A stretch of 61,298 nucleotides of DNA from a virus: the IMG/VR virus record IMGVR_UViG_3300047408_000236, positions 1-61,298 of that record, one strand, 5' to 3'. This document shows, one piece after another, positions 6,559 to 48,329 of this stretch. Under the pieces are notes generated by a model. That model saw only the letters and a list, made by a program, of their open reading frames with translations, did no database searches and was not told the origin of the DNA. Positions within the stretch are counted from its first letter, which is position 1. Every line of letters starts with the position of its first letter. The translations under genes were made by a program, and so were the position numbers.

Positions 6559-7007
6559 TGGATCGTCGCACCTTTCTTCATGTACTCGCAACGGTTGGTG
6601 TGCTCACCGGCGCACCGTCATGGCTGCGCGACCCGCGCATGCTCGAACGTTTCGGGATTGTCAATCCGCCGCTCGATGATGATGTGTCCGAGTGGCTCGA
6701 ACCGACTGACCTGGCCGTTTATGGTCGGGACAAGACGTTTGACCTTATCGCTGCGAACGAGAGCAACGAGACTGGCTATGTCTACCTTGCTCGCCCCGGT
6801 GCCGACTATCAACGGCAAACGTTGTTGTCATTCACCATGCCGCCCGGCGGTTTCCTGCGTTGGAGCGCGGAGATGGGCGAGGAAATCTACGGACCAGTGC
6901 GTATCGTCGCGCCCGAGTTTTTCAAGGTCAGCGTGTATGGCACCGACAGCCGCGGTCGAATAGTCTGCGCCGACAAGAACGGCCTGATCCCATTGTCGCT
7001 AGCGTGA
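6558..7007 (+). CDS. exported protein with Tat-like signal, unknown
   Basis: A 149-residue protein. The first 23 residues (MDRRTFLHVLATVG...) match a twin-arginine signal (RRTFL), suggesting export in folded form. The mature part is beta-rich with no recognised motif. It is odd in the middle of a cytoplasmic sugar-nucleotide cassette; it may belong to the glycan's final location. TGATG coupling to the preceding gene. Confidence 0.6.
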   Translation: MDRRTFLHVLATVGVLTGAPSWLRDPRMLERFGIVNPPLDDDVSEWLEPTDLAVYGRDKTFDLIAANESNETGYVYLARPGADYQRQTLLSFTMPPGGFLRWSAEMGEEIYGPVRIVAPEFFKVSVYGTDSRGRIVCADKNGLIPLSLA

Positions 7008-7948: not shown

Positions 7949-8622
7949 GCCTGACCGTCGCGATTCTGTGCGGCGGACTTGGTACCCGATTAAAACCGCT
8001 CACCAACACGATGCCGAAGTCATTGGTTGAAGTGGCCGGCGTCCCGTTCATCAACTATCAACTTCGACACTTGGCCAGCCAGGGCATTGAACGCGCGGTG
8101 TTGTGTATCGGATACCGCGGCGGGCAAATCGCAGAGTTTGTCGGCAGCGGCCAGCGCTTCGGGCTGGACGTGGCGTACTCGTCTGATGGCGGCAAGCCGC
8201 TCGGCACGGCAGGCGCAATCAGGAAGGCACTACCGATGCTCGGCTCAGAGTTCGGGGTGCTGTACGGCGACGTATTCCCGCTCTATAGCTTGCAGGCTGT
8301 CGGTGAGTCGATTCTTGGGACAGGCGATGCTGTTATGGCGATACGTTCGCCTGGCCGCGGCAATGTCAAGTACCACGATGGTCGTGTGCTGGCTTACACG
8401 CGCGGCAGTCGATCAGCCTATGGTGATGCTGGATTCTCCGTACTTCATGCCGATGCGTTCCTGCACACGGACGTGACCGATCTGGGCGACTTGTTCAGCG
8501 ACCTTGCGATCGCCGATTCCCTCGACGGGTACGAGGTGACCGAGCCGGTGTACGAGGTTGGCTCGTTCGAAGGGCTCGCGTCATTCGAGCGCTATGTCCT
8601 TCACGACCGAATACCTGTCTGA
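7945..8622 (+). CDS. hddC: sugar-1-phosphate nucleotidyltransferase, HddC-like
   Basis: A 225-residue nucleotidyltransferase of the type that joins a sugar 1-phosphate to GTP or another NTP. The signature LCGGLGTRLKPLT is at residues 8-20, followed by PKSLVEVAGVPFINYQL; GTAGAI lies in mid-protein. The context (heptose kinase before, phosphoheptose isomerase after) points to D-glycero-alpha-D-manno-heptose 1-phosphate guanylyltransferase. The nucleotide cannot be proved from sequence. GTGA overlap at the start. Confidence 0.75.
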   Translation: MSLTVAILCGGLGTRLKPLTNTMPKSLVEVAGVPFINYQLRHLASQGIERAVLCIGYRGGQIAEFVGSGQRFGLDVAYSSDGGKPLGTAGAIRKALPMLGSEFGVLYGDVFPLYSLQAVGESILGTGDAVMAIRSPGRGNVKYHDGRVLAYTRGSRSAYGDAGFSVLHADAFLHTDVTDLGDLFSDLAIADSLDGYEVTEPVYEVGSFEGLASFERYVLHDRIPV

Positions 8623-9145
8623 AGTTGCGGCAATTGCCGCTGGTTTCGACGTTGAGCAGGTTGATGCTTGCGCCGCGCTGCTTGATGGAGCGCAGCGCGT
8701 GTTCGTCCTGGGTAATGGTGGGAGCGCGGCGAACGCGTCGCACTTCGTCAACGATCTGCGCAAGATTGCCGGCATCGAAGCCTATGCGCCGACAGACAAC
8801 GCGGCCGAGCTTACTGCGCGCACGAATGACGATGGCTGGCACACGGCGTTCGCCGGTTGGCTCAAGACCAGCCATCTCGATCTATTCGACCTCGTGTTCG
8901 TGTTGTCGGTTGGCGGCGGCTCGAGCACAACCAGTGCGAACATTGTTGCTGCGCTCGTTTATGCGCGCGAGGCTGGTGCGCAAATCGCGGGGATTGTGGG
9001 CCGAAGCGAGGGCTATACGCGCCAGGTCGCGAACGCCTGCATTGTGGTTCCAAACGTCAATGAGGAGCACGTGACGCCTCACGCTGAATCGTTCCAGAGC
9101 GTGCTGTGCCATCTGCTGGTGTGGCATCCGGCCCTGCAGTCGTGA
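8594..9145 (+). CDS. gmhA: SIS-domain phosphoheptose isomerase, GmhA-like
   Basis: A 183-residue SIS protein with the GmhA signature GNGGSAANASHF (about residues 36-47) and a second loop LSVGGGSSTTSANI. GmhA converts sedoheptulose 7-phosphate to heptose 7-phosphate. Conserved late acidic/His residues occur in EEHVTPHAES. ATG 8594 is chosen because the helix before the motif fits GmhA length (about 190 aa). Overlaps the preceding gene by 29 bases. Confidence 0.8.
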   Translation: MSFTTEYLSEVAAIAAGFDVEQVDACAALLDGAQRVFVLGNGGSAANASHFVNDLRKIAGIEAYAPTDNAAELTARTNDDGWHTAFAGWLKTSHLDLFDLVFVLSVGGGSSTTSANIVAALVYAREAGAQIAGIVGRSEGYTRQVANACIVVPNVNEEHVTPHAESFQSVLCHLLVWHPALQS

Positions 9146-9801
9146 GGCTGTTCGTCGACTCGGCCAATCTTGCGGATATTGAGGATGCGTTGCGCACGGG
9201 CGCGATCAGCGGGGTCACCACGAACCCGAGCATCCTGGCGAAAGAAGGCGTGGCGGACCGAATGCGTCGCTACCAGAAGATTGTCGGGTTGCTCGAAGGC
9301 CAATCGCTGAGCGTAGAACTGGTCGGGACGGATCCAGAGCGCATGATCTTCGAGGCATATGACCTCGCTATTGCGCTGAAGTACCCGAACCTGGCGATCA
9401 AGGTGCCGATGCGCTGGTCGTGGCTACAGGTCGTGCGCGAGTTGCGCGATCACGAGGTGCAGACCAACGTGACGGCGTGCATGACGTATGCCCAGGCGAT
9501 CGTGGGTGCGATGGTCGGCGCGACCTACGTCAGCATGTTCTGGAACCGTATTCGCGACGGTGGCGAGCAGCCGGCTGACATCGTGCGCGCTGTGCGTACA
9601 ACCTTCGACGCGCACGTCTGTAACACTCAGATCATCGTCGGCTCGATCCGCTCAACGCAGGACGTGACCGACGCCATCATGGCCGGTGCTGACATCGTGA
9701 CCGTGCCGCCGCAGTTCCTCGCACCATTGTGCGAGCATCCGAAGACCGACGAAGTGATCAGCCAGTTCCTGCGGGACGCTAAACAACCCATTCACGTCTA
9801 A
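9142..9801 (+). CDS. transaldolase / fructose-6-phosphate aldolase-like
   Basis: A 219-residue short transaldolase starting RLFVDSANLADIEDAL, with GVTTNPS and the Schiff-base lysine in NLAIKVP (K87). Transaldolases of this size make sedoheptulose 7-phosphate, the substrate of the isomerase encoded just upstream, so the phage could feed its own heptose route. GTG start in a GTGA overlap. Aldolase activity on another sugar is possible. Confidence 0.8.
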   Translation: MRLFVDSANLADIEDALRTGAISGVTTNPSILAKEGVADRMRRYQKIVGLLEGQSLSVELVGTDPERMIFEAYDLAIALKYPNLAIKVPMRWSWLQVVRELRDHEVQTNVTACMTYAQAIVGAMVGATYVSMFWNRIRDGGEQPADIVRAVRTTFDAHVCNTQIIVGSIRSTQDVTDAIMAGADIVTVPPQFLAPLCEHPKTDEVISQFLRDAKQPIHV

Positions 9802-9831
9802 CCCGTCCGCCTGGAGGTGGGACCGACAACC

Positions 9832-11331
9832 ATGCCGAACCCATTTCAGGCGATAGGGAAAGCCTTGCGCGGCGATTATCTGTCGCACAAGTTCACGCCG
9901 CTCGACGCCACAATGAACTGGCAGTACGTCAATCACCTCGTGTACACGGCGAACACGATCCCGTACTCGCAGGATTATGGCGGCGACGGCAACTCGGCCG
10001 TATTTGCCTGTTTGCGAGCGCTGGCGTACGCGAGCATTGAGGCGCCGCTTCGTGTCTGGCAACTGGACACCAAGCAGGAACGCGAGCCGCTGTTCGTCAG
10101 CCCGATCCTCGATCTGTTTGACGAGCCGCATCCCGAGCTCGACCTGAACGAGATCCGCTGGTGGTCGGCATGGGCGCGGCATATCGACGGCAACGCGTAC
10201 GTGCTCAAGGTGAGGTCGGGCAATGCGACCAGGGGAACACCGGTCGAGTTGTGGCCGATCAGCCCGACCAGGATGCGGCCACATACTGAGCGTGGCTCGA
10301 ACAACTTTATCGACTGGTACGAACTCGATCGCTACCAGGGCGGGCCGCCCCAGGAAATCCCCGTAGAAAACGTTATCCACTTCAAGCTGGGCGTTGATCC
10401 GTACGATACGCGCAAGGGTATCGCGCCGCTGAAACGGCTCGTACGCGAGATCGCCAGTGATGGCGAGGCCACGCGCTACGCCGATGCGTTGCTTAGAAAC
10501 TTCGGTACGCCAGGTCTGGTAGCCAAACTGCCGGCCGAGACGATGCTGGCGCCAAAACAGATCGAGGAACTCAAGGCGAGCATCAGCCAATCGTTTGGCA
10601 GCGAGAACCGCGGTCGAGTCGGCGTGCTGTCTGGCGGCGCGGACATGGAGCAGTTCGGGTTCTCGCCCGACCAGTTGAACCTGAAGGTGCTACACGACGT
10701 GCCCGAGACACGCATCGCCGCGGTCATGGGCGTCGACCCGCTGGTAGCAAGGCTGGGCGTTGGGCTCGAGCAGACCAGCAACTACGCGAGCGCTCGTCAG
10801 GTCCGCGAGAATTTCACTGAGCTGACCATTGTCCCGTTGTGGGTAATGGATGAGTCGAAGTGGAACCGCAAGCTCAAGACTGACTTCACCGATGATCGCA
10901 GCATCGTCATCGCCCACGACCTGAGCCAGGTTCGTAGCTTGCAGGAAGACGAGAACGCCAAGCATCTGCGATTGCGCGAAGACTTCAAGGCAGGGGTGAT
11001 CACGCGCGAGATGGCGCTCCGCGGTCTGGGCTACGACTCTGACTTGCCGCCCGAGGACACGCTCGCCGTGCCGTCAGGGCTCACGTACGTGCGCGTAGCC
11101 GACGCGGTAACTGACCCGACTGCTACCCCGGCTTTGCCGCCGCCGTTGCCTGGCGCGCCTCCTGTGCAGCCTGCGGTACCTCCGGGCGGGAAGGCGCGCG
11201 GTGACGCGTTCGCTTCGGTGGTGCAGAGCATCGTGGATCAGGCTGCCGGCGACTTCGCCGACGATCTTCAGCGGCTCCAGGACGGTCAGCAGAAGCGTGT
11301 GACGAACGGGCTCGTCAATGGTAGTCACTGA
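9832..11331 (+). CDS. HK97-family portal protein
   Basis: A 499-residue portal that forms the DNA gate of the capsid. Typical features are the early SAVFACLRALAYASIEAPLR segment, an internal VIHFKLGVDPYD...KGIAPL region and a late Pro-rich tail (about residues 440-470). GGAGG lies at 9812-9816. ATG 9832 gives a slightly long spacing, and GTG 9817 is in frame but too close. It restarts the head gene order after the sugar cassette. Confidence 0.85.
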   Translation: MPNPFQAIGKALRGDYLSHKFTPLDATMNWQYVNHLVYTANTIPYSQDYGGDGNSAVFACLRALAYASIEAPLRVWQLDTKQEREPLFVSPILDLFDEPHPELDLNEIRWWSAWARHIDGNAYVLKVRSGNATRGTPVELWPISPTRMRPHTERGSNNFIDWYELDRYQGGPPQEIPVENVIHFKLGVDPYDTRKGIAPLKRLVREIASDGEATRYADALLRNFGTPGLVAKLPAETMLAPKQIEELKASISQSFGSENRGRVGVLSGGADMEQFGFSPDQLNLKVLHDVPETRIAAVMGVDPLVARLGVGLEQTSNYASARQVRENFTELTIVPLWVMDESKWNRKLKTDFTDDRSIVIAHDLSQVRSLQEDENAKHLRLREDFKAGVITREMALRGLGYDSDLPPEDTLAVPSGLTYVRVADAVTDPTATPALPPPLPGAPPVQPAVPPGGKARGDAFASVVQSIVDQAAGDFADDLQRLQDGQQKRVTNGLVNGSH

Positions 11332-11911
11332 GCGCAAGCAAGCCGCCGACGAGCAGCACGGCTTTCGGGATGACGACCTCGAACTGGCGCTGATCACCGC
11401 GCTGTTCGTGCTCTGGTACGGCACGGCCCTGCGAGCGGTTCATACGCTGGCCTTGCGCGTGCTCAACCTGAGCACGGTCCCGCTCGACGATCCGTCCGTG
11501 CGACAGATTGCCCTGGCTGGTCGTGCTGCCGCGGTCGCGGTCGACGCCACCACGCGCCGGCTGATCGCCGAGCGCATCCATGACGGGCTGGCGCAGGGCT
11601 TGACGACGCGCGAGATCGCGTATGGTACGCCCGACTTTCCGGGTATCACCGGTCTGTTCGAGGGCACGTGGAAGAACCGGCCATTGACGATCGCGAGGAC
11701 CGAGTTACAGAAAGCGCAACTCCAGGCAACCGTGAACCGATTCCGCACAGTTGGCCGAGGTGTGGTGACGGGGCTGCTCGCGCACGATGGTGACCATGAC
11801 GCGGCCTGTGCAGCTCGAGACGGACGAATCTACCCGGTCAGCCAGCCGCCGGAACTTTTGCACCCGAACTGCCGACTCAGCCTCAGCCCAGTTATTGGAG
11901 GGATCCCGTGA
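11318..11911 (+). CDS. phage head morphogenesis / minor capsid protein
   Basis: A 197-residue protein of the SPP1 gp7 / Mu F type. The C-terminus carries the usual signature: ARTELQKAQ, then CAARDGRIYPV and ELLHPNCRLSL, a Cys/His pattern typical of this family. It follows the portal gene with a 14-base overlap, the standard location. Confidence 0.75.
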   Translation: MVVTERKQAADEQHGFRDDDLELALITALFVLWYGTALRAVHTLALRVLNLSTVPLDDPSVRQIALAGRAAAVAVDATTRRLIAERIHDGLAQGLTTREIAYGTPDFPGITGLFEGTWKNRPLTIARTELQKAQLQATVNRFRTVGRGVVTGLLAHDGDHDAACAARDGRIYPVSQPPELLHPNCRLSLSPVIGGIP

Positions 11912-12351
11912 CCACGATTGTCCGGCCCAGCGAGGCCGACCTGAGTGCAATCGCCCGACGTATTAGCGGGCCACTGTCACCTGAAGGCGCAGAAGCGTGG
12001 TACCGCAATGACAGCGCCATGTTGCTGCAAGAGATCGCCACGTTACGCCAGGAAGCCGCTACAGCGCGGCAAAGTTTCTTCAGCGACGGTGCTCAGGCCG
12101 GACCTGATGCCACGTTGTACGAATTGGCGAAGGCATGGAAGGCGACGAGTACGGGCTACTGGGAGAAGACCCAGACCAGACGGTTACGTCAGAAAGTGGC
12201 CGAGCTTACGGACGACGCAGAGAACCTGCGCGCCTCGATCCAGACGATGCGCGAGGAGTACGAACGAAACGTTCAGGTGTTGAGCGCTCAGTACGCGGCA
12301 CGTGAAGCCCAGGCCAAGGATCTCATGGCTCGCGCCGCGGAGTTGCTGTGA
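11908..12351 (+). CDS. helical/coiled-coil protein between head genes
   Basis: A 147-residue, highly helical protein (residues about 35-145 alanine/glutamate/arginine-rich). It could be a scaffold-like or minor head protein from position, but no motif supports this. GTG start in a GTGA overlap. Confidence 0.55.
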   Translation: MTTIVRPSEADLSAIARRISGPLSPEGAEAWYRNDSAMLLQEIATLRQEAATARQSFFSDGAQAGPDATLYELAKAWKATSTGYWEKTQTRRLRQKVAELTDDAENLRASIQTMREEYERNVQVLSAQYAAREAQAKDLMARAAELL

Positions 12352-12560
12352 CCAAACGGCGCGCGAAGGCGCCGGCACTCACGCCTCACGGGTTCGATCT
12401 GGCTTACGGGAAAGATTCGGCCGCGCAGCCGGGTATGGTCATGTTCAGAATCGCTAACGAGGGCGTAATCAAGTGGGAGCTGAACATGCCGCCCGAGGAG
12501 TTTCTGGTCCTGGCGCACGCGTTCGAGAACGTGGCTCGAGCCGTCGCCGCGGACGTGTAA
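12348..12560 (+). CDS. small hypothetical protein
   Basis: A 70-residue protein of unknown family with GTGA coupling to the gene before and TAATG coupling to the glycosyltransferase after. The segment IKWELNMPPEEFLVLAHAF looks like a small beta-hairpin/helix fold. No function can be assigned. Confidence 0.55.
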   Translation: MTKRRAKAPALTPHGFDLAYGKDSAAQPGMVMFRIANEGVIKWELNMPPEEFLVLAHAFENVARAVAADV

Positions 12561-13681
12561 TGCTCGGTCGCGCACCGCGCGTGCTCGCCCTGACTGGCGA
12601 TGAAACCGGCTGCAGCCTTTGGCGAATCTGGCAGCCATTCGCTGAGCTCGAACGCCGCGGCTTTATCGCCGAGTGGTCGCACAAGAATGACAGCGACAAG
12701 GTGCTGCCGCTCGTTGCGGCCGGTCGGTACGACGCGGTCATTACGCCGCGGATCGTCTGGCCGGTCGAGGGCATTGGCGAGCAGTGGGTCAACACGATTC
12801 ACAAGGCCGGCCTGGCCTGGCTGTACGAGATCGACGACGACATCTTTTCGCCCAGGATTGTCGATCGGCAGATGCGCGTCTTTCCGGCCGAGGCGGCCAA
12901 AGGTCGCGACCAGCTCGAATGGGAACGTAACGAGCGGATCAAGATGCTCACCGTGTGCGACGGCGTGACGGTGTCGAGCCGGCGACTGGCGACGATTGCG
13001 CGTCAGTACGCACCAGCAGCAACGCCTGTTTATCACATCCCCAATAGCATCGATGCGAAGTGGTTCAGGTCAACGCTCCGCGGCATCGGTCGCATCCCCG
13101 AACTTGAGGGCAAGTTGACGGTTGGCTGGGCTGGCGGCGCACGCGAAGAGGCCGACATGAAGCCGCTTGCTGAGGCATGGGCGATCATCGCTGAGCGCTA
13201 CCCCGAGGTCGAGTTCGTGATTCAGGGTCATATGAGCGACTCGCTCTACCACTCGATTCCGGATGAACGGCGGCACTCGCTGCCGTGGCTGGAATTGCAC
13301 GAGTACCCGCGGGCGCTCATCAACATCGATATTGGCTGCTGCATTGTGGCGCCGCTCGTGTTCAACACCTCGAAAACGTGCATCAAGTGGTACGAGATGA
13401 CGCTCGCTGGTGCCGTGTGCGTTGTCAGCCCGACGTTGTACGGGCGCGAGGTGACCGATGGTGAGGATGCGCTGGTCGCTGAGACGCCCGAGCAGATAGT
13501 CACGGCGCTGAGCCGACTGATTGAGTCTGAGGATCTGCGCCGGACGATCAGCCGTAATGCTCGGCGCGCGGTCATGGAGCGCCACAGCTTAGAGAACAAC
13601 TGGCATAAGTGGCCGTTGGCCTGGTCAGACGCAATTGAACGATTCCGCGCGAAGCCGAGACTGATTCTCGCTTCCGCTTAG
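12560..13681 (+). CDS. GT-B glycosyltransferase (GT4-like)
   Basis: A 373-residue glycosyltransferase. The C-terminal nucleotide-sugar half has VGWAGGAREEADM (about residue 190), then KWYEMTLAGAVCVVS and a DGEDALVAETPEQIV tail, all typical of GT4 enzymes. It lies among head genes, so it is probably expressed late and could glycosylate virion or cell-surface targets using sugars from the neighbouring cassettes. Confidence 0.75.
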   Translation: MLGRAPRVLALTGDETGCSLWRIWQPFAELERRGFIAEWSHKNDSDKVLPLVAAGRYDAVITPRIVWPVEGIGEQWVNTIHKAGLAWLYEIDDDIFSPRIVDRQMRVFPAEAAKGRDQLEWERNERIKMLTVCDGVTVSSRRLATIARQYAPAATPVYHIPNSIDAKWFRSTLRGIGRIPELEGKLTVGWAGGAREEADMKPLAEAWAIIAERYPEVEFVIQGHMSDSLYHSIPDERRHSLPWLELHEYPRALINIDIGCCIVAPLVFNTSKTCIKWYEMTLAGAVCVVSPTLYGREVTDGEDALVAETPEQIVTALSRLIESEDLRRTISRNARRAVMERHSLENNWHKWPLAWSDAIERFRAKPRLILASA

Positions 13682-13747: not shown

Positions 13748-14575
13748 TTGCTGTACATGTCTACCCCGCTGGAGTTGGTCGAGATCAAGGCCGACTCGTC
13801 AGGCGCGATGCAATTCACCGCGTACGCATCGACGTTCAACAATCGCGATCACGGCGGCGACATCATCTCCAAAGGCGCGTTCGGTGCAAGTCTTGCCGAA
13901 CGCAAGTTTCGACCGCTGCTCTGGCAGCACGACATGCGCGAGCCGATCGGCATCGAAAAATCACTCAAGGAAGACGCCCGCGGCTTGCTCGGCACGTGGG
14001 AGCTGGTCGATACCGTCCGCGGTCGGGACGCCTACAAATTGCTCAAGGCGGGCGCGGTGCGCTCCATGAGCATTGGCTACGTCCCGACGCAGTTCAAGTT
14101 CGACGACGCCGGCGATACGCGCATCCTCGAAGAAATCGACCTTTTGGAAAATTCAGTTGTCAGCATTCCGATGAACGATCAGGCGCAAGTGCAATCGGTC
14201 AAGCACGTGCATTGCGCGACGTGTATGGCGCTAATCGAAGTACCCAAGGAGGAAGAGCACAAGGAACAGCCGACGCTGGCGCAGCTCGCCAGCACGACCA
14301 GAGATGTGGTCGCGGCGTTCGGTGAACGCACTCGCGACTTGCTCGACAAATTGCAAGCAGGCGATTTCAGCCTGACGGAACAGAAACGCACAGACCTCCA
14401 GGCACTCCTTGAGACGTTCTCGGGGATCGACGCCGTGCGTCACGACGCCGAAGCGGTACTGGCTCACAAGCAGGAACAGGTACCCGACCCGACGACTAGC
14501 CAGCAGATCAGTACGACTGCCCTGGCTCTTGAACTGGCTCGTCACCGCATTCGTGCGCGTGGCTGGGAGGTCTGA
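13748..14575 (+). CDS. HK97-family prohead protease
   Basis: A 275-residue capsid maturation protease. Expected residues are visible: His in LLWQHDMREPIG (about residue 61) and Ser in ENSVVSIPMNDQA (about residue 140). The family domain fills residues 5-150. The C-terminal half is an extension with a CATC pair, helical and perhaps scaffold-like. TTG 13748 is preferred for Shine-Dalgarno spacing; ATG 13757 is the alternative. The major capsid gene follows. Confidence 0.8.
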   Translation: MLYMSTPLELVEIKADSSGAMQFTAYASTFNNRDHGGDIISKGAFGASLAERKFRPLLWQHDMREPIGIEKSLKEDARGLLGTWELVDTVRGRDAYKLLKAGAVRSMSIGYVPTQFKFDDAGDTRILEEIDLLENSVVSIPMNDQAQVQSVKHVHCATCMALIEVPKEEEHKEQPTLAQLASTTRDVVAAFGERTRDLLDKLQAGDFSLTEQKRTDLQALLETFSGIDAVRHDAEAVLAHKQEQVPDPTTSQQISTTALALELARHRIRARGWEV

Positions 14576-14582
14576 ACGAATC

Positions 14583-15908
14583 ATGTCGATGACCATTGCC
14601 GAAGCTCAGACGGAGCTCAAGGAACGGCTCGAGCAGGCCGATCTGCGCGAGAAAAAGTATCTCGACACCGAGATGCCTAACGAGGAACGCGAAGAGCAAA
14701 AGAAACTGCTCGACGAGATCGCTACTCTCGAAACGAAACTGAACGATATCGAGGATGCCGAGCAGCGGCGTGCTCGCATTATGCAGTCGTACGAGCGCGC
14801 ACGACGGCCAGCACCTGGCGCGCGCCCAACGTACGAGGGCGATGATGGAGACCTCGAGGGCAAGCGCATCTCACCAGGTCGTCAGTTCCTATCCAGCATG
14901 GATTACCGCACGGCCAAACAGCGCAAGATGTTCGATTCGAATCTGTCGCGTGTCGAGATCGGCGTCACGATGTCCGAAGGTACGTCGATGCTCGAATGGG
15001 CCCAGCAGAAAACGCTGTTGCGCGGCGGTTCGTCCACTTCTGGTGGGCCGTTCGTGCTCGAGGACCATCAGCCAGGATATCTCGACTTGCTGCAGGCGCC
15101 GCTGAACGTTATCGACATCATTATGCGGTCGCAGACGTCGAGCGACACCATCGAATATGTCCGTGAGGACACGTTCACCAACGCTGCGGCGTTCGTCGCT
15201 GAGGCAACGGGCTTCACGGCGTCGGCGCTCGCGACTGGCACGGGTACTGGCCTCAAGCCTGAGTCAGCATTGGCGTACAGCACGCAGACCGCGACGGTCA
15301 GGACGCTGGCTCACTGGATTCCGGTTACAAACCGCATGCTCAGTGATGCGCCGGCGATCCGCGGCATCATCGACGGACGGCTTCTGTTCGGCTTGCAGCA
15401 GAAACTGCAGTCGCAGATCGTGTCTGGTGACGGTACTGGTGAGAACCTTACCGGTATTTTGAACACGGCCAGCATTGGCGTCGTCGGCAAGGGCACCGAT
15501 TCGCAGATTGACGCGCTGTACAAGGGTCGAACACTGGTCAACTGGACGGGCCTGGGCCGAGTCTCCGCGTTCTGTCTCAACCCGACTGATTGGCAGACAA
15601 TCCGTCTGGCACGTGAATCGGCCTCGACGGCGACGCCTGGTTCCTACCTGTTCGGTCCGCCGAGCGGTATGGGCGCACCCACGTTGTGGGGTATTCCGGT
15701 TGTCGAAGACCCGAATATCACGGTAGGTACGGGCCTGGTCGGCGACTTCCAGCAGGGCGCCACGCTCTATGATCGCGAACAGGGCGCGGTCAGGGTCGGC
15801 ACGGTGAACGACCAGTTCGTGCGCAATATGCAGACTATTTTGGCCGAACTCCGCGTGGCCTTCGTGGTCTGGCGGCCAGCAGTTTTCGCGAAAGTCACCG
15901 GACTCTGA
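14583..15908 (+). CDS. major capsid protein, HK97 fold
   Basis: A 441-residue capsid subunit. Residues 1-75 are a coiled coil like the HK97 delta (scaffold) domain, expected to be cut off by the protease. The mature part has typical stretches: SDTIEYVREDTFTNAAAFVAE, an N-arm/spine region and a late GDFQQGATLYDREQGAVRVG loop. GGGAGG lies 13 bases before the ATG. Confidence 0.9.
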   Translation: MSMTIAEAQTELKERLEQADLREKKYLDTEMPNEEREEQKKLLDEIATLETKLNDIEDAEQRRARIMQSYERARRPAPGARPTYEGDDGDLEGKRISPGRQFLSSMDYRTAKQRKMFDSNLSRVEIGVTMSEGTSMLEWAQQKTLLRGGSSTSGGPFVLEDHQPGYLDLLQAPLNVIDIIMRSQTSSDTIEYVREDTFTNAAAFVAEATGFTASALATGTGTGLKPESALAYSTQTATVRTLAHWIPVTNRMLSDAPAIRGIIDGRLLFGLQQKLQSQIVSGDGTGENLTGILNTASIGVVGKGTDSQIDALYKGRTLVNWTGLGRVSAFCLNPTDWQTIRLARESASTATPGSYLFGPPSGMGAPTLWGIPVVEDPNITVGTGLVGDFQQGATLYDREQGAVRVGTVNDQFVRNMQTILAELRVAFVVWRPAVFAKVTGL

Positions 15909-15911: not shown

Positions 15912-16109
15912 GTGGCTAATCCTGCGCCTGCAGTCATGGACGTTGTTCGCCGTCTACGGCTGCGCTTACGCAGGATGAGTGGTGACGAGCCGGCAACGGA
16001 GCATCCACCGTTGCCGGCCGTCGACCACAAACGACGACTGATCTACTTTGATAAGGCACGCTGGCCGCGGCGTGATTATGAAGACAAGGGAGTCCAGCCG
16101 CATGGCTGA
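15912..16109 (+). CDS. small basic hypothetical protein
   Basis: A 65-residue, Arg/Pro-rich protein with GTG start three bases after the capsid stop. No recognised family. Overlaps the next gene by 8 bases. Confidence 0.5.
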   Translation: MANPAPAVMDVVRRLRLRLRRMSGDEPATEHPPLPAVDHKRRLIYFDKARWPRRDYEDKGVQPHG

Positions 16110-16368
16110 TGAATACGTGGTGCAGCTATACGGCACCGGTGGCGATTACGTTACCGACGCGTTCACCGATCAAGACTTATCGCTGGCCAGTAATCGCGAG
16201 ATGGTGATAGACAGCGGCGGCAAAATCTACGTCTGGAACCAGCGCAACGCCCAATGGCGAGAATCAGCCGGTGTCATCACGCTCGGCAAGGAAATAGTCA
16301 AGCCGGCTGAACCCGAGCCCGAACCTGAGCACGAGCCCGAGCCAAAGGTGGCCGATAAGGACAAGTGA
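16102..16368 (+). CDS. small acidic protein with Glu-Pro repeats
   Basis: An 88-residue protein: a small beta-rich N-terminal domain (VVQLYGTGGDYVTDAF) and a Glu-Pro repeat tail (about residues 68-82). Position right after the capsid suggests a head accessory protein, but there is no motif to prove it. Its stop overlaps the GTG of the glycosyltransferase. Confidence 0.55.
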   Translation: MADEYVVQLYGTGGDYVTDAFTDQDLSLASNREMVIDSGGKIYVWNQRNAQWRESAGVITLGKEIVKPAEPEPEPEHEPEPKVADKDK

Positions 16369-16958
16369 AGGCGCCGTCGTTCACGTTCATTGTGCCGACG
16401 CATCGCAATGATCGGCCGATACCGCGTTGCCTCAACAGCATCGCGCCGCAGCTCGATCCGTCCGATGAGGTGATCGTGGTTGGCGACGTGCATGATGGGC
16501 CCTTGCCGAACGTCGAATCATGGGTAGCGTCTTACGGCTCGCAGTTCCGCTATGTGAGTTTGGACGCGGGCCATCACTGCTTTGGTCACTGTCAGAATAA
16601 TCTCGGCATCGAGCAGGCCAAAGGAACATACCTTCATTTCAACGACGACGATGACGTCTGGACGCCGGACGCGGTGGCGCTCATGCGAAGAAGCGTCAGC
16701 ATGTTTCCCGACATTGCGCTGCTGTTTCGGTTCCACTCGTACTTTGGCCTGGACTTCTGGGATATGGCCGGCCACTTTGAGCGCAACTACATCGGTGGCC
16801 ATTGCCTGGTCGCGCCGAACGTTCCGGACAAGATCGGATCATGGACGTGCGACTACACCGGGGATTTCGACTACGTCGAGAGCACGGTGAACAATTTCGG
16901 TGGGCCGGACAGGGCGATCTGGGTCAACGAGTTCGTAGCGCGAGCGCGACCAGGATGA
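16365..16958 (+). CDS. GT2-like glycosyltransferase
   Basis: A 197-residue GT-A protein: N-terminal FIVPTHRNDRPIPRCLNSI and the metal-binding acidic cluster HFNDDDDVW (about residue 88). It is short for the family, essentially the catalytic core only. First gene of the second glycan cassette; GTGA overlap with the preceding gene. Confidence 0.75.
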   Translation: MKAPSFTFIVPTHRNDRPIPRCLNSIAPQLDPSDEVIVVGDVHDGPLPNVESWVASYGSQFRYVSLDAGHHCFGHCQNNLGIEQAKGTYLHFNDDDDVWTPDAVALMRRSVSMFPDIALLFRFHSYFGLDFWDMAGHFERNYIGGHCLVAPNVPDKIGSWTCDYTGDFDYVESTVNNFGGPDRAIWVNEFVARARPG

Positions 16959-17794
16959 TTCCCGCACCGACCAACAACTACACGGATTACCGAGACTGCT
17001 TGCGCGAGGCGGTTGCGCAGCAGCCCGAGGAATGGACGTTCAAGTCCGATCCGCGGTACCAGCGGGTGCTCGAGCATGTTGACCATTACCAGGGCGTCAG
17101 ATTCATCGTGCAGATCAAGCAGGAGTACGCGGCGTACTGGTCGAGGGCGCTCTCGATATTGCCGGCCATCGTTGAGGAGAATGACCGTTACGGCAAGCCG
17201 ATCACTGACACGTTCCAGGAGATCGGGCTGACGTGCTCGCCGTCGAACCTGCGCTATTTGAGCCAGGCATTGCGATTGTGGACGCATGCGCTCGAGATGG
17301 GCATGGAACGCATGCACGTGGTCGAGTTGGGCGGCGGCTACGGTGGGCTGGCACTGTACGTCCATCGGCTCGCATCGTTGTTCCCGAGCGTAGAGCTCGC
17401 TTGGTACACGATCGTCGACTTGCCGGAAGCCGCGGACATTCAGGAGATGGTGTTTGCTGAATGGGGCGTGCCGGCCATGACGGTGAATGGACTGGACGAG
17501 GTTGCGCTCGAATGGTGTCTCGACCATGCCGATGAGACGCAGGCGCCGCGGTTTCTGTTCTCAGCTTATGCCTTCAGCGAGTTCGATGAGGAAACGCGCG
17601 ACTACTACGCCGAGCGTGTTGCGAAGCATTGCGAGCATGGCGTGCTGATCTGGAACTTTACCAACGGTCCGCACGAGAAACTAGCGGAACGGCCGGTCGG
17701 TGGGCCGGTCTATCAGTTCATCAATAAGCCGTTACGCACCAATCTAGATCAACCGGCCATGTATCCGGAACCCATCCAGCTCGTGAGGTTCTAG
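16955..17794 (+). CDS. putative sugar O-methyltransferase
   Basis: A 279-residue SAM-dependent enzyme with VELGGGYGGLALYVHRL (about residues 120-136) as motif I and YTIVDLPEAADIQ as the following acidic strand, a pattern seen in putative sugar O-methyltransferases of glycan clusters. ATG 16955 is in an ATGA overlap; longer in-frame starts lie inside the glycosyltransferase. Confidence 0.65.
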   Translation: MIPAPTNNYTDYRDCLREAVAQQPEEWTFKSDPRYQRVLEHVDHYQGVRFIVQIKQEYAAYWSRALSILPAIVEENDRYGKPITDTFQEIGLTCSPSNLRYLSQALRLWTHALEMGMERMHVVELGGGYGGLALYVHRLASLFPSVELAWYTIVDLPEAADIQEMVFAEWGVPAMTVNGLDEVALEWCLDHADETQAPRFLFSAYAFSEFDEETRDYYAERVAKHCEHGVLIWNFTNGPHEKLAERPVGGPVYQFINKPLRTNLDQPAMYPEPIQLVRF

Positions 17795-18927
17795 TGGTTT
17801 CGGCCCCGGTCAAACGCTACCCGCTCGCGCACGTGACGTACGGCGACGAGGAGATGGCCGCGGTCATGATGACGTTGAGGGCTGGCCAGACCACGTGCGG
17901 GCCTCAGGTGAAAGAGTTTGAGCGGTCCTTTGCCGAGTATGTCGGTCGCGAACATGCCATCATGGTCAACTCGGGCTCGAGCGCTGACTTGCTGTGCGCG
18001 TTCGGGCTGGGACCGGCTGAGCCTGGCGACGAGGTGCTGGTGCCCGCGGTGACGTGGCCGACACAGATCTGGTCGTGCACGATGGCTGGCTACACGGTGC
18101 GGCTCGTCGACGTCGACCCGACTACGTTGCAGATGGACCTTGCCGACTTGAAGCGCAAGGTCAACATCCATACGCGTTGTGTGTTCCTGACGCACGTGCT
18201 CGGCAACGTCGGCAACCTCGACGACTTGGACGATGTTGATATTCCAATTCTCGAGGACTGCTGCGAGGCGATGGGTGCTCGCTGGCGCGGCAAGCATGTC
18301 GGGACGTTCGGTTCGGCCGCGGCGTTCTCGTTTTTCTTCAGCCACCTCCTCAACACGATGGAGGGCGGGATGGTGGTGACGGACTCGCCGATCGATGAGC
18401 GCGACTACCGGCTATGGCGTTCACACGGCTGGGAGCCGAAGGTCGATTTTCCGTTCTGGTTCCCGACGTGGGGTTTGAACGTGCGGCCGACCGAGATCCA
18501 GGGCGCGTTCGGTAATGTCCAGATGACGCGGCTCGAAGGTTTTCGGAAAGCTCGAGCACGCAATTTCGACCGACTCATGGCCGCCATCCCGTGGGACTGG
18601 CTGAACGGCATAGCCGTATTGCCTGAATGTGAACCGGCATGGCATGGCTTCCCGGTGATGGTTGTCGAGGATGCACCGTTCTGCAAAACCGACTTGTGCC
18701 GGTACCTCGATGCGCATGGCGTCGAGACGCGGCCGATTGTGGCAGGTAACTTTGCCGAGCAGCCCGTAGCGCAGGGCCACCCACAGATCATCGCTGAGCA
18801 TCTGCCGGGCGCGGAACACATCCATACGCACGGGTTCTATATCGGGATCTCATCGTTTGATGATGAGGACGGCGCGGCTTACGTCGGCGAGGTTGTGCGC
18901 GACTTCCTACGAGACACTAAGTGCTGA
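17794..18927 (+). CDS. DegT-family PLP enzyme with His in place of the PLP lysine (sugar 3-dehydratase type)
   Basis: A 377-residue DegT/DnrJ/EryC1/StrS protein. Family aminotransferases bind PLP through a lysine before the TxxGGG loop; here the equivalent segment reads [15 protein letters not shown], with His184 at that place. The same Lys-to-His change is known in ColD and RfbH/E1-type sugar 3-dehydratases, so removal of a C3 hydroxyl (a 3-deoxy sugar) is predicted rather than amination. Other PLP-site residues are present (EDCCEAMG). GTG start shares a base with the preceding TAG. Confidence 0.75.
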
Positions 18928-19559
18928 TCGCCATGCGCGACCTTGTCGAGCGCTACGACGTGACACCGAAAGCGGTCCTACACGTCGGCGCCCATCTTGG
19001 CGAAGAGGCTCCTGATTATCAGGCCGTGGGTGTTGAGCGCGTCTTGTGGATTGAGGCGAACAGAGCGCTGATGCCGGCGCTACAGGCGCACGTAGCGGGA
19101 TTCGCTGGTCAGCGAGCGTTGCAGGCTACGGTGAGCGACGTCAATGACGAGCCGGTGACGCTGCGACTGACGACCTTCTCGATGGCGTCTTCGATCCTGC
19201 CGCTCAAGGAGCACCTCAGGTTCTACCCGTCGATGCCCGAGGTCGGTGGGCAACTGGATATGAGCACCACAGTCGATATGTTGCTCGAGCAGCACGGCGA
19301 GTCGCCCGCGTTCGATATGGCCAACCTCGATGTGGAGGGCGCCGAGTTGTACGTGCTACGCGGCATGGCATCGGTCATGCCAAGTTTGAAGTGGGTCTAT
19401 ACCGAGGTCAATCACGAGGAGATGTACGAGGGCTGCGTCCTGGTGTCGCACATGGACGACTATCTTGGCGGCTTCGGGTTCAAGCGAGTAGCTATTCAGG
19501 ACGCGTATATCGGCAGTCAGATGATGGGCTTCGCGGATGCGCTCTATGCCCGAATCTAG
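18921..19559 (+). CDS. FkbM-family methyltransferase
   Basis: A 212-residue methyltransferase: AVLHVGAHLGEEAPDYQ (SAM motif, about residues 19-35), a strand VLWIEANRAL, and the FkbM hallmark NLDVEGAELYVLRGM (about residues 134-148). It probably methylates a sugar hydroxyl. GTG 18921 or ATG 18933 could be the start. Overlaps both neighbours. Confidence 0.75.
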   Translation: MLIAMRDLVERYDVTPKAVLHVGAHLGEEAPDYQAVGVERVLWIEANRALMPALQAHVAGFAGQRALQATVSDVNDEPVTLRLTTFSMASSILPLKEHLRFYPSMPEVGGQLDMSTTVDMLLEQHGESPAFDMANLDVEGAELYVLRGMASVMPSLKWVYTEVNHEEMYEGCVLVSHMDDYLGGFGFKRVAIQDAYIGSQMMGFADALYARI

Positions 19560-20331
19560 CCTGCAAGTCATCTGCTTTAGCAAAGACCGGCCGCTGCAGC
19601 TTCACGGGTACCTGACCTCGTTCTACCGGCACTGCGAGCAGAACGCGGACGTGAAAGTGCTGGTGCAGTCGCAGCCTCAGTGGTTCGCTGATGCGTACGG
19701 TCAAGTCGAATCCGAATTTCCTCAGGTCGAGTTCTGCCACGAGACAGACTTTCGAACGGACCTCGAATCGCTGATTGGCGATACCGAGTACACCATGTTC
19801 GGCTGCGACGACGTCGTGTTCACACGCTCGTTCGAGATACGGTTCGACGAGGGCGTCATTGGGGTATCGCTGCGACTCGGGAACCACATCACGCGCGATA
19901 TGTTCGGCGCCCCGCTGTCACAGCCGACCATGTTTCGTCGGGGTAATCAGTGGCCGGTGGTTGAGGGCGTGGGCGATTGGGGCTATCCGTGGGAAGTGCT
20001 GGGCACGATCTACCGAACCGACTTCGTCAAACGCATGGCGGCGCGCGTGCAGGCCAACTCGCCCAGCCAGCTCGAAGAACGCGGCTCGCGCTGTTGGGCC
20101 GAGGAAACGGACGCGCGCCTGCTGGCATCGTGGGCCCTGTCGCGGCTTGTGGTGCCGACAGTGAACCTCGTGCAGCAGGAGTTCCCGAACGGGATCTGCG
20201 GCAACGTGCCGCTCGATGTCGGCTTCCTGCTCGACTGCTGGAACCACGGTATGCGATTGGACGTGGACCGATACGCGAACATGGCGCCCGAGTCGTGGCG
20301 TATCCCTGATTTCTTCTTGAGGCGGGCATGA
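19537..20331 (+). CDS. putative glycosyltransferase (GT-A-like)
   Basis: A 264-residue protein starting VICFSKDRPLQLHGYLTSF, the beginning typical of GT-A-like sugar transferases, with an acidic pair in YTMFGCDDVVF (about residue 89) where the metal site is expected. It overlaps FkbM and the next glycosyltransferase. ATG 19537 or 19546 is the start. No closer family recognised. Confidence 0.6.
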   Translation: MRSMPESSLQVICFSKDRPLQLHGYLTSFYRHCEQNADVKVLVQSQPQWFADAYGQVESEFPQVEFCHETDFRTDLESLIGDTEYTMFGCDDVVFTRSFEIRFDEGVIGVSLRLGNHITRDMFGAPLSQPTMFRRGNQWPVVEGVGDWGYPWEVLGTIYRTDFVKRMAARVQANSPSQLEERGSRCWAEETDARLLASWALSRLVVPTVNLVQQEFPNGICGNVPLDVGFLLDCWNHGMRLDVDRYANMAPESWRIPDFFLRRA

Positions 20332-21053
20332 CGGCCTGGGCGTTCACGCTCGCGTACAACGAGGCGCCGCTGATCCGGTATTGGGTTCGAGCCTATCGAG
20401 ATTTCTGCGACAAGGTCATCGTCTACGTTGACATTGGCTCAGATGACGGGACGGCTACGCTCGCGCGGCGTGAGGGCGCTGAGGTGCGGCCTTACGGACC
20501 AAGTGATCTGGACGACGTTGCCTTCGTTGCCTTCGCTCAGGAGCACTACAGAGAGGCGCGCGGCCATGCCGATTGGGTGATCTGGGTCGACGCCGACGAG
20601 ATTCTGTACCACCCGCACATCGAGCAGCGACTTGTCGAACTGCGCGCTCAGGGGGTGAACTTTCCGACCGTCGCGGGCTACAGCATGATGGCCGATCACC
20701 CGCCGACCGGACTGGATCAGATCTACGACCAGATCCAGACAGGTTTTCCTTCACGAGCGTACGGCAAGGTTTGCATCTTCGACCCGATGCTTGACGTTCA
20801 GTGGGCAACCGGCAAGCACACCGCGACTGCCGTCGGCGCCGTGTCTGATGATGGCTCAGACCCGTTGAAGTTGCTGCACTACCGCTGGCTGGGCGAGGAC
20901 TACTTTATGCAACGCAACTGGCGGAACTTCAGACGAGTGAACGCACTCAACAAGGCCATGCAGCACGGCAAGGAGATTTATCCCGGTTATCAAGGGGAGT
21001 ACAGCCCGCAGTGGTACGCCGAACGCCGCAGCATGGTCGAGGTTTGCGTATGA
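20328..21053 (+). CDS. GT2/GT92-like glycosyltransferase
   Basis: A 241-residue enzyme: AFTLAYNEAPLIRYWVRAY at the N-terminus, YVDIGSDDGTATLA, and the catalytic WVDADEIL (about residues 85-92). Starts in an ATGA overlap. Third transferase of this cassette, so the product is probably an oligosaccharide, not a single sugar. Confidence 0.75.
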   Translation: MTAWAFTLAYNEAPLIRYWVRAYRDFCDKVIVYVDIGSDDGTATLARREGAEVRPYGPSDLDDVAFVAFAQEHYREARGHADWVIWVDADEILYHPHIEQRLVELRAQGVNFPTVAGYSMMADHPPTGLDQIYDQIQTGFPSRAYGKVCIFDPMLDVQWATGKHTATAVGAVSDDGSDPLKLLHYRWLGEDYFMQRNWRNFRRVNALNKAMQHGKEIYPGYQGEYSPQWYAERRSMVEVCV

Positions 21054-21451
21054 CTACGGGCGTGGCGTTCGCGGTTCAGGCATACGTCGAGGAACAGGCC
21101 CAGGATGTGGTGTCACTGCTCAAGGCGTGCGGCTGGCAGGATAACGCGATCCCGACGTACGAGGTTCTGGCTGAGGCTTCGATGACCGGCTGCGCGTTTG
21201 TCGCGGTCAGGGACGGTCACGTGGTCGGGTTCATTAGGGTGATCAGTGATGGCGAGGTGGTGTCGTACGTGACGGAGGTGGCCGTGGATGCAGGGGCAAG
21301 ATTCCAGGGGATCGGGCGAGCGCTGATTGACGCTGTGGCTGCCGAGTTCCCGAAGGCGCGCATCGATCTGCTGTCGACGTCGAGTGCGCAGGAGTTCTAC
21401 GACACTCTCTGCTTTACGCGGAAGTCTGGTTATCGGAGATGGCCGCAGTGA
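21050..21451 (+). CDS. GNAT-family N-acetyltransferase
   Basis: A 133-residue acetyltransferase with the acetyl-CoA loop ARFQGIGRALIDA (about residues 83-95) after the strand VVSYVTEVAVD. The following gene is a lysine-containing sugar aminotransferase, so the likely job is acetylating an amino sugar. ATGA overlap with the preceding gene. Confidence 0.75.
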   Translation: MTTGVAFAVQAYVEEQAQDVVSLLKACGWQDNAIPTYEVLAEASMTGCAFVAVRDGHVVGFIRVISDGEVVSYVTEVAVDAGARFQGIGRALIDAVAAEFPKARIDLLSTSSAQEFYDTLCFTRKSGYRRWPQ

Positions 21452-22539
21452 TCCCCCTTTTCAAAGTGTTCATGGCTCCCGATGCCAAGGATCGAGCCGG
21501 GGTAACGCTCGATTCTGGGTACGTCGGCGAGGGTCCGCGCGTACAGGAGTTCGAGCAAGCGTTTGCTGAGTTGGTGGGTTTCTCTTCTCGCCCACCGCTC
21601 GCGCTCAACTCCTGTACGTCGGCGCTCGACCTGGCCTGTCACCTGACCGGTGTCGGGCTGGGCGACGAGGTCATCACTACGCCGATGACGTGTACGGCCA
21701 CAAACGGCGTGCTGGTGAATCGCGGCGCAAGGATTGTGTGGGCTGACGTGGACCCGCTGACCGGTCTGATTGATCCCGCGGATGTGGCTCGGAAAATCAC
21801 GCGGCGTACGCGCGCCATTATGGCCGTTGATTGGGCTGGTCGGTCATGCGATTACCGGGCGCTGCGCTTTTTTGGTCAGCCAGTTATTCAGGATGCAGCG
21901 CACAATCTGTTCATCGATCCTGAGAACTGCGGTCACTACGTGGCCTGGTCGTTCCAGGCCATCAAACACCTGACCACTGGTGATGGTGGTGCGTTGCTCG
22001 TACCAGCGGGGCAATATAACCGCGGCCGTCTGCTCCGTTGGTACGGGCTCGATCGCACGTCATCTGCCGACTTCCGATGCTCGCAGGACATCAAAGAGGC
22101 TGGCTTCAAGTACCACATGAACGACATCGCCGCCAGCATTGGGTTGGCCAACCTGCCCCATGTCGCAGAACTCGTGGCTCACCACCGCGAGAATGCGGCG
22201 TGGTTCTCCCAGAGCCTCCAGGGCGTGCCGGGCATCACACTACCTCCTGCTGATCCCGGCTCGTCCTGGTGGCTGTATTGCCTGCTGGCCGATGACCGAG
22301 CGTCCTTGATCGATCATCTGGCCAGCCGCGGCATAAGTGCAAGTCCCGTGCACCGACGTAACGATACCCACCCGGCTTTCTACTACCCAAACGGTCCGCT
22401 ACCCGGCGTCGACCACTTCGCCGATCACGAGGTTGCCATCCCTGTGGGCTGGTGGATCTCTGAGAATGATCGGGGGCGGATCGTGGCGGCCGTACTCGAG
22501 TGGTCGCACTCGCGTCAATTGGTTGGAGCTGCGGCATGA
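21439..22539 (+). CDS. DegT/DnrJ sugar aminotransferase
   Basis: A 366-residue PLP aminotransferase. Unlike its relative at 17794, it keeps the PLP lysine (AWSFQAIKHLTTGDGG, K176) and has QDAAHNLF for the pyridine-nitrogen contact. It should convert a keto-sugar nucleotide to an amino sugar, which the adjacent GNAT could acetylate. Last enzyme of the second glycan cassette. Confidence 0.8.
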   Translation: MAAVIPLFKVFMAPDAKDRAGVTLDSGYVGEGPRVQEFEQAFAELVGFSSRPPLALNSCTSALDLACHLTGVGLGDEVITTPMTCTATNGVLVNRGARIVWADVDPLTGLIDPADVARKITRRTRAIMAVDWAGRSCDYRALRFFGQPVIQDAAHNLFIDPENCGHYVAWSFQAIKHLTTGDGGALLVPAGQYNRGRLLRWYGLDRTSSADFRCSQDIKEAGFKYHMNDIAASIGLANLPHVAELVAHHRENAAWFSQSLQGVPGITLPPADPGSSWWLYCLLADDRASLIDHLASRGISASPVHRRNDTHPAFYYPNGPLPGVDHFADHEVAIPVGWWISENDRGRIVAAVLEWSHSRQLVGAAA

Positions 22540-22628
22540 CGCTCGTCCGATTTCCGACGCGACCTGATCGCGCCAAGCCGCCCATGAAGCCTAAGCCCAA
22601 GCCGAAGCCACCGAAGCGACCCTACTGA
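22536..22628 (+). CDS. 30-residue Lys/Pro-rich peptide
   Basis: A short frame with ATGA overlap to the aminotransferase and TGATG coupling to the connector gene, so it fits the translational chain at both ends. The C-terminal part is a (Lys-Pro)n-like tail ending KPPKRPY. Function unknown. Confidence 0.5.
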   Translation: MTLVRFPTRPDRAKPPMKPKPKPKPPKRPY

Positions 22629-23263
22629 TGAGCGCTAACCTCTACGCGTCTGTCTCCGAACTCAGGGACCGTCTTGGCCTGACGGATACCGACCAGGACT
22701 TCATGCTCGACCACGCCCTGCAGTCGGCTTCACGGTGGATCGACAAGACTCTTGGCCGAAGGTTCTTCACGACGGCCGCGGATGAGATCCGCTACTTCAC
22801 GGCGTGTAATGCGTACTGGTATCTCGAAACAGGCGATCTTCTGAGTGTGACCACGCTCGCCACAGACGCGAACGGCGATGGCATCTTTGAGACAACGTGG
22901 ACGGTTACCACCGACTACTGGCTCGGGCCGCGGAACGCGCCGCTTGACAGTGAGCCGTATACCTGCATCAACAAGAACTGGACATCAGGACGGTATACGT
23001 TCCCTGCCTGGCAGGATGCCGTACAGATCACCGGCAAGTTTGGTTATTGCACGCTGGCTAACGTGCCGCCGCAGATTCGCGAGCTGACCCTGTCACTTGC
23101 CGAAACCGGCACAGGCTCGGTCGGAGGTGGTGACCTCGCTATCCCCGGCGTGCAGAGTTACAAGATCGGGACCGAATTGTCGGTGACAATGGGCAGCACC
23201 AAACTCGCCGACTCGAATCTGTCGGTCCTCACCCAGTTCCGGCGTGGCGGCTTCGTCACCTAG
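22628..23263 (+). CDS. head-tail connector protein (gp6-like)
   Basis: A 211-residue protein beginning LYASVSELRDRLGLTDTDQD, the usual start of gp6-like head-tail adaptors, followed by helices (LQSASRWIDKTLGRRF) and a beta-rich middle. It resumes the structural gene order after the glycan cassette. Confidence 0.7.
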   Translation: MSANLYASVSELRDRLGLTDTDQDFMLDHALQSASRWIDKTLGRRFFTTAADEIRYFTACNAYWYLETGDLLSVTTLATDANGDGIFETTWTVTTDYWLGPRNAPLDSEPYTCINKNWTSGRYTFPAWQDAVQITGKFGYCTLANVPPQIRELTLSLAETGTGSVGGGDLAIPGVQSYKIGTELSVTMGSTKLADSNLSVLTQFRRGGFVT

Positions 23264-48227: not shown

Positions 48228-48329
48228 TTACTTGAGGAACGTGGCATGGGCAATCACGAGGATGCTCATGCCACAGGCGATGATCATGGAAAGCGCTAGT
48301 GTCCAGCCGATGAAGTACCTCCTAGCCAT
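48228..48329 (-). CDS. 33-residue membrane peptide in the T4SS operon
   Basis: Short frame with one membrane helix (TLALSMIIACGMSILVIAHA). It overlaps the end of the NlpC gene by 8 bases (ATGGCTAG), in keeping with the operon's coupling, and precedes the pilin. Too short to name. Confidence 0.5.
   Translation of the reverse strand: MARRYFIGWTLALSMIIACGMSILVIAHATFLK

Follow-up and report, generated by a model that had tools for sequence, protein, structure and literature searches.

A sugar-enzyme cassette between the capsid and adaptor genes of a metagenomic phage: an exchangeable locus probably serving virion glycosylation

Sugar genes of phages are usually filed as auxiliary or filler. What, then, does a phage do with eight sugar-related enzymes encoded between its major capsid and head-tail adaptor genes? 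The question is raised by positions 16365-22539 (cassette B) of a 61,298-base IMG/VR virus record, referred to hereafter as the window, whose sequence comes from a metagenome and whose phage is known from metagenomes only. Our analysis indicates that modified guanosine diphosphate (GDP) sugars (heptose; 3-deoxy and/or N-acyl-amino) are probably made in the cytosol and placed on a virion protein, and that cassette B is part of an exchangeable glycan locus.

Cassette B encodes three glycosyltransferases of the GT-A fold, two methyltransferases, a 3-dehydratase, a GNAT acyltransferase and an aminotransferase (Table 1). All eight open reading frames (ORFs) were intact and on one strand, and the coordinates and classes assigned to them in an initial annotation of the region held up. 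The DDDD motif of B1 was kept in 10 close homologues and only its central DD in farther ones (L007, L014), the glycine-rich S-adenosylmethionine-type motif GGGYGGL of B2 was invariant across 7 homologues and the DAD motif of B6 was invariant among relatives. B5 matched no family of Pfam, PHROGs or NCBIfam. An AlphaFold2 model of B5 made from 8 relatives (mean predicted local distance difference test score, pLDDT, 84.7) had GT-A glycosyltransferases as its best matches (Foldseek E ~1e-6; TarP, Z 13.3, root-mean-square deviation 3.3 over 188 residues), and on this model B5 is a predicted GT-A glycosyltransferase. None of the cassette proteins had a hydrophobic 19-mer of the kind that spans a membrane, and all are predicted to be soluble.

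The two DegT proteins of the cassette differ at the active site. The best solved relative of B3 was ColD (2gms; E 4e-58 over residues 8-368). His184 of B3 occupies the position of the lysine that binds pyridoxal 5'-phosphate (PLP) in aminotransferases, where it is aligned with the catalytic histidine of ColD (an asparagine in entry 3b8x), and this histidine was invariant in 10 phage homologues. By family and by the replacement of lysine with histidine, B3 is classed as a ColD-type 3-dehydratase with predicted activity on a GDP-4-keto-6-deoxy sugar, in agreement with its earlier label, "3-dehydratase-type DegT". B8 kept the catalytic Schiff-base lysine, in SFQAIKHLTT. Its nearest structures were 4zwv (E 3e-76) and 4zas (CalS13; E 6e-63); the top entries, which carry the table label "putative aminotransferase", are presumably AtmS13. 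B8 is closest to the AtmS13/CalS13-type sugar aminotransferases and is predicted to aminate C4 of a thymidine diphosphate (TDP)-4-keto-6-deoxy sugar.

Selection on the cassette was estimated by the Nei-Gojobori method from the ratio of nonsynonymous to synonymous divergence (dN/dS) between the window and its relative L018. With dS at ~1 to 1.7, near saturation, the ratios are approximate: 0.10 for B1, 0.18 for B2, 0.09 for B3, 0.08 for B4, 0.10 for B5, 0.12 for B6, 0.22 for B7 and 0.10 for B8, compared to 0.07 (capsid), 0.09 (portal), 0.08 (glycosyltransferase at 12560) and 0.07 (adaptor). Purifying selection on cassette B is the same as that on the head genes, and the cassette is actively maintained. 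The conserved active-site motifs and this selection ruled out host debris or broken fragments; the scattered host fragments with disrupted active sites that the initial annotation had named as the contrary outcome were not what we found.

The late genes run in the order terminase, cassette A, portal, MuF-type gene, an ORF, glycosyltransferase, protease, major capsid protein, small gene, cassette B and head-tail adaptor, followed by more connector genes. Within cassette B, start and stop bases are shared by neighbouring genes (GTGA at 16365; ATGA at 16955, 20328 and 21050), and the chain of overlaps extends from the small gene as far as a 30-codon ORF, itself overlapping the start of the adaptor gene at 22628. 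No sigma-70-like promoter pattern was found between 14500 and 23500, in itself weak evidence. Cassette B is predicted from these overlaps to be translationally coupled and to belong to the late head operon, with the small gene on its capsid side and the head-tail adaptor on the other.

To follow the capsid-adaptor slot through related phages, 51 relatives were collected by capsid and more by ColD, glycosyltransferase, DegT and HddA searches, and the gaps between capsid and adaptor genes were located by profile searches. The interval ranged from 0.1 to 8.9 kb, with contents from empty to several enzyme sets. Gaps of 111-622 bases were present in L023, L024, L025, L035, L036, L037, L038, L048 and L050, and one of 218 bases, resting on a weak adaptor match, in L040. 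The gap was 1.4-1.9 kb in L007, L008, L014 and L016, 3.1-5.1 kb in L005, L006, L010-L012, L027, L030, L032-L034 and L113, and 6.2-8.9 kb in the window, L015, L018, L019 and L004. In L055 the adaptor lies 326 bases after the capsid and the cassette sits behind the adaptor, so that the cassette is known from two different slots. Full cassettes had B1 first and B8 last, with a varying gene order between them; among those with the gene order of the window, B4 was present only in the window, L004/L053 and L018/L054. A GNAT gene stood beside the aminotransferase gene in 11 of 11 distinct judgeable loci (one ORF lies between them in L055), and the GNAT of L006, L010, L012, L015 and L019 had no detectable relation to B7 by tblastn.

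B3 and B5 of the window were 89% and 91% identical to those of L053 and 82% and 77% identical to those of L018, while the capsid was 81% identical to that of L053 and 93% to that of L018. Because the enzymes are closer to one relative and the capsid to the other, these identities suggest exchange inside the locus. That relatives carry different versions of the cassette, or none, at the same spot suggests that these phages coat their own virions with sugars and exchange the enzymes used for it. In L018 an HNH endonuclease gene (11366-12274) stands between the capsid and the small gene, at the left cassette edge; L004 has an N6/N4 DNA methylase gene (7266-7991) inside its cassette. Each of the two may have a link with mobility of the locus.

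The glycosyltransferase at 12560 behaved differently from the slot. A copy preceded the capsid gene in 29 of 31 loci (by profile searches in loci with more than 3.2 kb of upstream sequence, some of them near-identical). Comparison with relatives lacking the cassette, which had been proposed as a check, showed that empty slots exist and that this gene is kept in them (L023, L024, L036 and L038, and likewise L025 and L035, whose upstream sequence is shorter). It is a core head-operon gene of this phage clade. In the tail region, the protein at 34867-35586 kept its DDD and SED motifs in 4 homologues; its AlphaFold model (pLDDT 47.8) was too poor to be used for assigning a glycosyltransferase fold. 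The initial annotation had counted at least five sugar transferases, of which four are firm (B1, B5, B6 and 12560) and the fifth, at 34867 and below cutoff, is likely. Its proposal that they build a multi-sugar chain stands as far as functional enzymes to make, decorate and transfer several sugars are concerned; their use in a single chain is possible.

Cassette A, which lies between the terminase and portal genes, carries GDP-heptose-type genes. A5 scored 107 bits with the MurU model vs 73 bits with HddC, and the HddC entries 6jq8 and 5xhw were among its top matches in the PDB. The PDB matches of A6 were phosphoheptose isomerases only (E 4e-10), and its TIGR00441 match (E 3e-12) was below cutoff. 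The real start of A7 is possibly up to ~36 bases downstream of 9106. The apparent CTG start of A1 inside the terminase stop (TACTGA) restores an intact Rossmann motif, GGxGFIG. Together these genes are predicted to supply most of a GDP-heptose pathway (GmhA-, HddA- and HddC-like enzymes plus a transaldolase). The only protein of the window matched in a search for a 4,6-dehydratase was A1, which was discarded, being a GalE-type enzyme with TSAVYG and without the Asp-Glu pair. Cassettes A and B co-occur in one operon in the window and in L018/G005, and this link of cassette B with GDP-heptose genes goes beyond the initial annotation. L180-L184 have the GDP-heptose genes of cassette A in the same slot and order before the portal, and HddA homologues also occur in unrelated phage contigs (e.g. 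L185, L186, L190, L192, L198 and L201) near GmhA- and/or HddC-like genes. Within cassette A, positions 6558-7007 encode a small protein beginning MDRRTFLHVLATVGVLTG, with a Tat-like signal; no homologue was detected at the same place in L003 or L018.

How might these enzymes work together? Judging from their families, A6, A4 and A5 would convert sedoheptulose 7-phosphate to GDP-heptose, with the phage transaldolase able to feed the pathway and the host contributing GmhB. B3 would then take the C3 hydroxyl off a GDP-4-keto sugar; B8 would aminate a 4-keto sugar, the amino group of which B7 would acylate to give an N-acylated amino sugar; and B2 and B4 would cap hydroxyls by methylation. The classes of these enzymes are established, and the substrates and order given here are predicted. 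The window yielded no 4,6-dehydratase, so that the host is the probable supplier of the 4-keto precursor. The soluble, cytosolic B1, B5, B6 and 12560 enzymes would join the sugars to a particle protein, most likely of the head, a proposal that draws on gene position, conservation and the lack of membrane or lipid-carrier genes. The PF02397 polyprenyl-phosphate initiating transferase had no match in the window or in four relatives. For a flippase or polymerase the analysis covered the cassette proteins, which showed no predicted membrane span; no model-based search for these families was made elsewhere in the window. Soluble proteins and the lack of a PF02397 transferase fit a route in which sugars are put directly on a cytosolic protein; with the genes in the head operon, virion proteins are the obvious candidate acceptors. 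The capsid-adaptor slot would be an exchangeable locus, and closely related phages would carry different particle glycans; the variation of the slot is observed, and from it we infer this consequence and any benefit. A more specific version, which we hold only tentatively and think unlikely in full, takes phage-made GDP-heptose through B3, B8 and the GNAT to an N-acylated 3-deoxy-4-amino sugar that the core glycosyltransferase puts onto the capsid, with the finishing enzymes exchanged at the one slot, which would be a virion serotype locus. To our knowledge, such a sugar has not been described on any virus.

Several points weigh against virion glycosylation as set out above. Both the virion acceptor and the glycan are predictions from the genes. 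The GmhB-type phosphatase model (TIGR01656) had no match in the window, G005 or G001, and the host may supply this enzyme. L020/G006, a 36 kb record that is possibly incomplete, has a ColD module and neither HddA nor a 4,6-dehydratase, which breaks a strict gene link between ColD and heptose; the ColD step is thus not tied to heptose. (In G019/L060, a different 66-kb phage, a GDP-mannose-dehydratase-like gene adjoins a ColD-like one and an HddA-like gene is nearby; L060:8961-15672 carries GDP-mannose-dehydratase-like, ColD-like, cytidylyltransferase-like, two transketolase/E1-like, short-chain dehydrogenase/reductase (SDR), HddA-like and again SDR genes.) B8 is nearest to TDP-sugar enzymes and B3 to a GDP-sugar enzyme, so that the two may act on different sugars. 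The glycosyltransferase genes of mycobacteriophage Maravista are placed near the 3' end of the genome and not in the head operon (PMC11256854). Finally, the phage is temperate, as its tyrosine integrase and NlpC/P60 protein indicate, so a change to the host surface is possible.

This last reading is the main rival. Here the enzymes would alter polysaccharide or teichoic acid of the host, late in infection or in lysogeny, and block superinfection or the sticking of progeny to debris. In its favour, the phage is temperate, cyanophages carry large lipopolysaccharide (LPS)-type clusters of unknown role (PMC3037559), and TarP, the best fold match of B5, is a wall-teichoic-acid glycosyltransferase; yet the genes lie within the head operon and not in a lysogeny region, the cassettes encode neither predicted membrane proteins nor the PF02397 initiating transferase, and the 12560 gene is conserved like the head genes. 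The lack of membrane segments and of PF02397 and the presence of the 12560 gene in 29 of 31 relatives shift the weight to the virion without settling the matter, and we regard host-surface remodelling as rather improbable. The initial annotation had left the choice between the two open; the virion is now the best reading, with the acceptor presumed. Quite another arrangement, possible though not the one we favour, and compatible with virion glycosylation, is that cassettes A and B are separate sugar systems serving different acceptors (e.g. tail and head). The ColD module of L020/G006 without heptose genes and the GDP-type and TDP-type nearest relatives of B3 and B8 agree with this, while the presence of both cassettes together, in one operon, in the window and L018/G005 speaks for a joint system.

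A further reading has the transferases act on modified bases of the phage DNA. Phage glycosyltransferases with DNA as their substrate exist (cited in PMC12619734), but a search of the window and four relatives, in which the positive control matched, gave no thymidylate-synthase homologue (PF00303), and several sugar-modifying enzymes with O-methyltransferases, located late among head genes, fit a glycan better; we judge DNA hypermodification very unlikely. Least likely of all, and scarcely credible, is passive acquisition of host genes that fill packaging space. The variable content of the slot and the position of the L055 cassette after the adaptor would suit such cargo, and for the cyanophage LPS clusters it is stated as unknown whether they are functional or stuffer DNA (PMC3037559); dN/dS of 0.08-0.22 over a dS of ~1 and conserved active sites contradict it here.

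Virion glycosylation by phage enzymes is itself already known, in mycobacteriophages. For Che8, glycosylated capsid and tail-tube subunits are reported (Freeman et al. 2023, cited by PMC12619734 and PMC11256854), and like the window phage these are tailed phages with glycosyltransferases of their own; in Maravista, of the same F1 cluster as Che8, the genes are placed as noted above, whereas the window has a nucleotide-sugar cassette inside the head operon. Mimivirus uses an aminotransferase, an N-acetyltransferase and a glycosyltransferase for virion viosamine (PMC9614988). The giant viruses resemble the window in encoding, for an N-acyl-4-amino sugar of the virion, a PLP aminotransferase, an N-acetyltransferase, a glycosyltransferase and a predicted methyltransferase, and differ in their eukaryotic hosts and use of uridine diphosphate-viosamine; neither a ColD-type step nor a head-operon location is known for them. 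In the GDP-3,6-dideoxyheptose pathway of Campylobacter jejuni HS:5, as in the route proposed for the window, GDP-heptose precedes a ColD-family PLP-dependent C3-dehydratase, which acts on GDP-6-deoxy-4-keto-heptose (PMC10440746). That pathway serves a bacterial capsule and includes a 4,6-dehydratase, a C5-epimerase and a C4-reductase (PMC10440746), whereas the window encodes an aminotransferase and a GNAT, and no 4,6-dehydratase was found in it.

Two phage genomes offer closer comparisons of gene order. Podoviridae sp. ctQWt234 (MW202801.1; L091 14575-33198) fills the same slot with an analogous set of enzymes, in the order major capsid protein, oxidoreductase, glycosyltransferase, dioxygenase (PhyH), methyltransferase, NodB-like protein, glycosyltransferase and phage stabilization protein; it is a podovirus with different enzymes, and no ColD or DegT is annotated there. 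Arthrobacter phage Maja (MK279899.1) shares the order portal-MuF, protease, capsid, small gene and adaptor, with a capsid 43% identical over part of its length, but has no glycosyltransferase at the MuF-protease junction and no cassette. No description of phage GDP-heptose or head-operon glycan cassettes was found in the open-licence literature, which is weak evidence. The combination of a core head-operon glycosyltransferase, an exchangeable capsid-adaptor sugar locus, a phage GDP-heptose set and a ColD-type step looks new. Since the clade offers empty, partial and full slots for comparison, it can be tested directly whether environmental phages put sugars on their particles and what makes these sugars vary, and enzymes for rare deoxy, amino and heptose sugars can be drawn from the cassettes.

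Table 1. Features of the window discussed in the text, cassette B first
Feature	Coordinates	Strand	Basis
B1, GT2-family glycosyltransferase (GT-A), first cassette B gene	16365-16958	+	PF00535 47.9 bits (cutoff 23.3), E 1.9e-12
B2, NanM-like putative sugar O-methyltransferase	16955-17794	+	TIGR04371 E 6e-8, below model cutoff
B3, predicted ColD-type nucleotide-sugar 3-dehydratase, dependent on PLP/pyridoxamine phosphate	17794-18927	+	DegT PF01041 237 bits
B4, FkbM-family methyltransferase	18921-19559	+	PF05050 36.1 bits (cutoff 22.7)
B5, predicted GT-A fold glycosyltransferase without named family	19546-20331	+	AlphaFold2 model, conserved CDD motif
B6, GT2-family glycosyltransferase (GT2_4)	20328-21053	+	PF13704 47.4 bits, E 2.8e-12
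B7, GNAT N-acyltransferase	21050-21451	+	PF13508 43.2 bits, E 5e-11
B8, DegT sugar aminotransferase, last cassette B gene	21439-22539	+	DegT 214 bits
GT1/GT4-type glycosyltransferase between MuF and protease	12560-13681	+	PF13524 E 2.5e-10
Probable GT2-like protein, tail region	34867-35586	+	PF00535 20.5 bits, under cutoff
Cassette A	4965-9801		
A1, GalE-type SDR, apparent CTG start overlapping terminase stop	4965-5867	+	TSAVYG motif
A2, classical SDR (FabG-like) oxidoreductase	5857-6558	+	PF00106 E 2e-37
A4, HddA-like kinase	7004-7948	+	NF049969 E 7e-38 (below its 600-bit cutoff); 3k85 E 2e-33
A5, sugar-1-phosphate nucleotidyltransferase, MurU/HddC-like	7945-8622	+	MurU and HddC matches
A6, GmhA-like sedoheptulose 7-phosphate isomerase (SIS)	8594-9145	+	PDB matches and TIGR00441
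A7, TalC-type transaldolase/fructose-6-phosphate aldolase	9106-9801	+	TIGR00875 E 1e-48; KVP Lys conserved
Terminase	3499-4968		Position and sequence; no Pfam or NCBIfam match
Portal	9817-11331		
MuF-type gene	11318-11911		
ORF	11908-12351		
Head maturation protease	13748-14575	+	phrog_80 E 9e-48
HK97 major capsid protein	14583-15908	+	phrog_10 E 2e-65
Small head-region gene after major capsid protein	16102-16368	+	Position matches Maja gp7
30-codon Pro/Lys-rich ORF bridging B8 and adaptor	22536-22628	+	ATGA overlap on either side, read from sequence
Head-tail adaptor	22628-23263	+	phrog_442 E 6e-19
NlpC/P60 protein	48325-49110	-	
Tyrosine integrase	52206-53177		

As to the host, a search with the capsid against bacterial genomes gave no close relative, and there was no near match in the phage collection. 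Upstream of the terminase, positions 1916-3166 of the window encode a fusion of a ParB-N domain with an N6/N4 DNA methylase.

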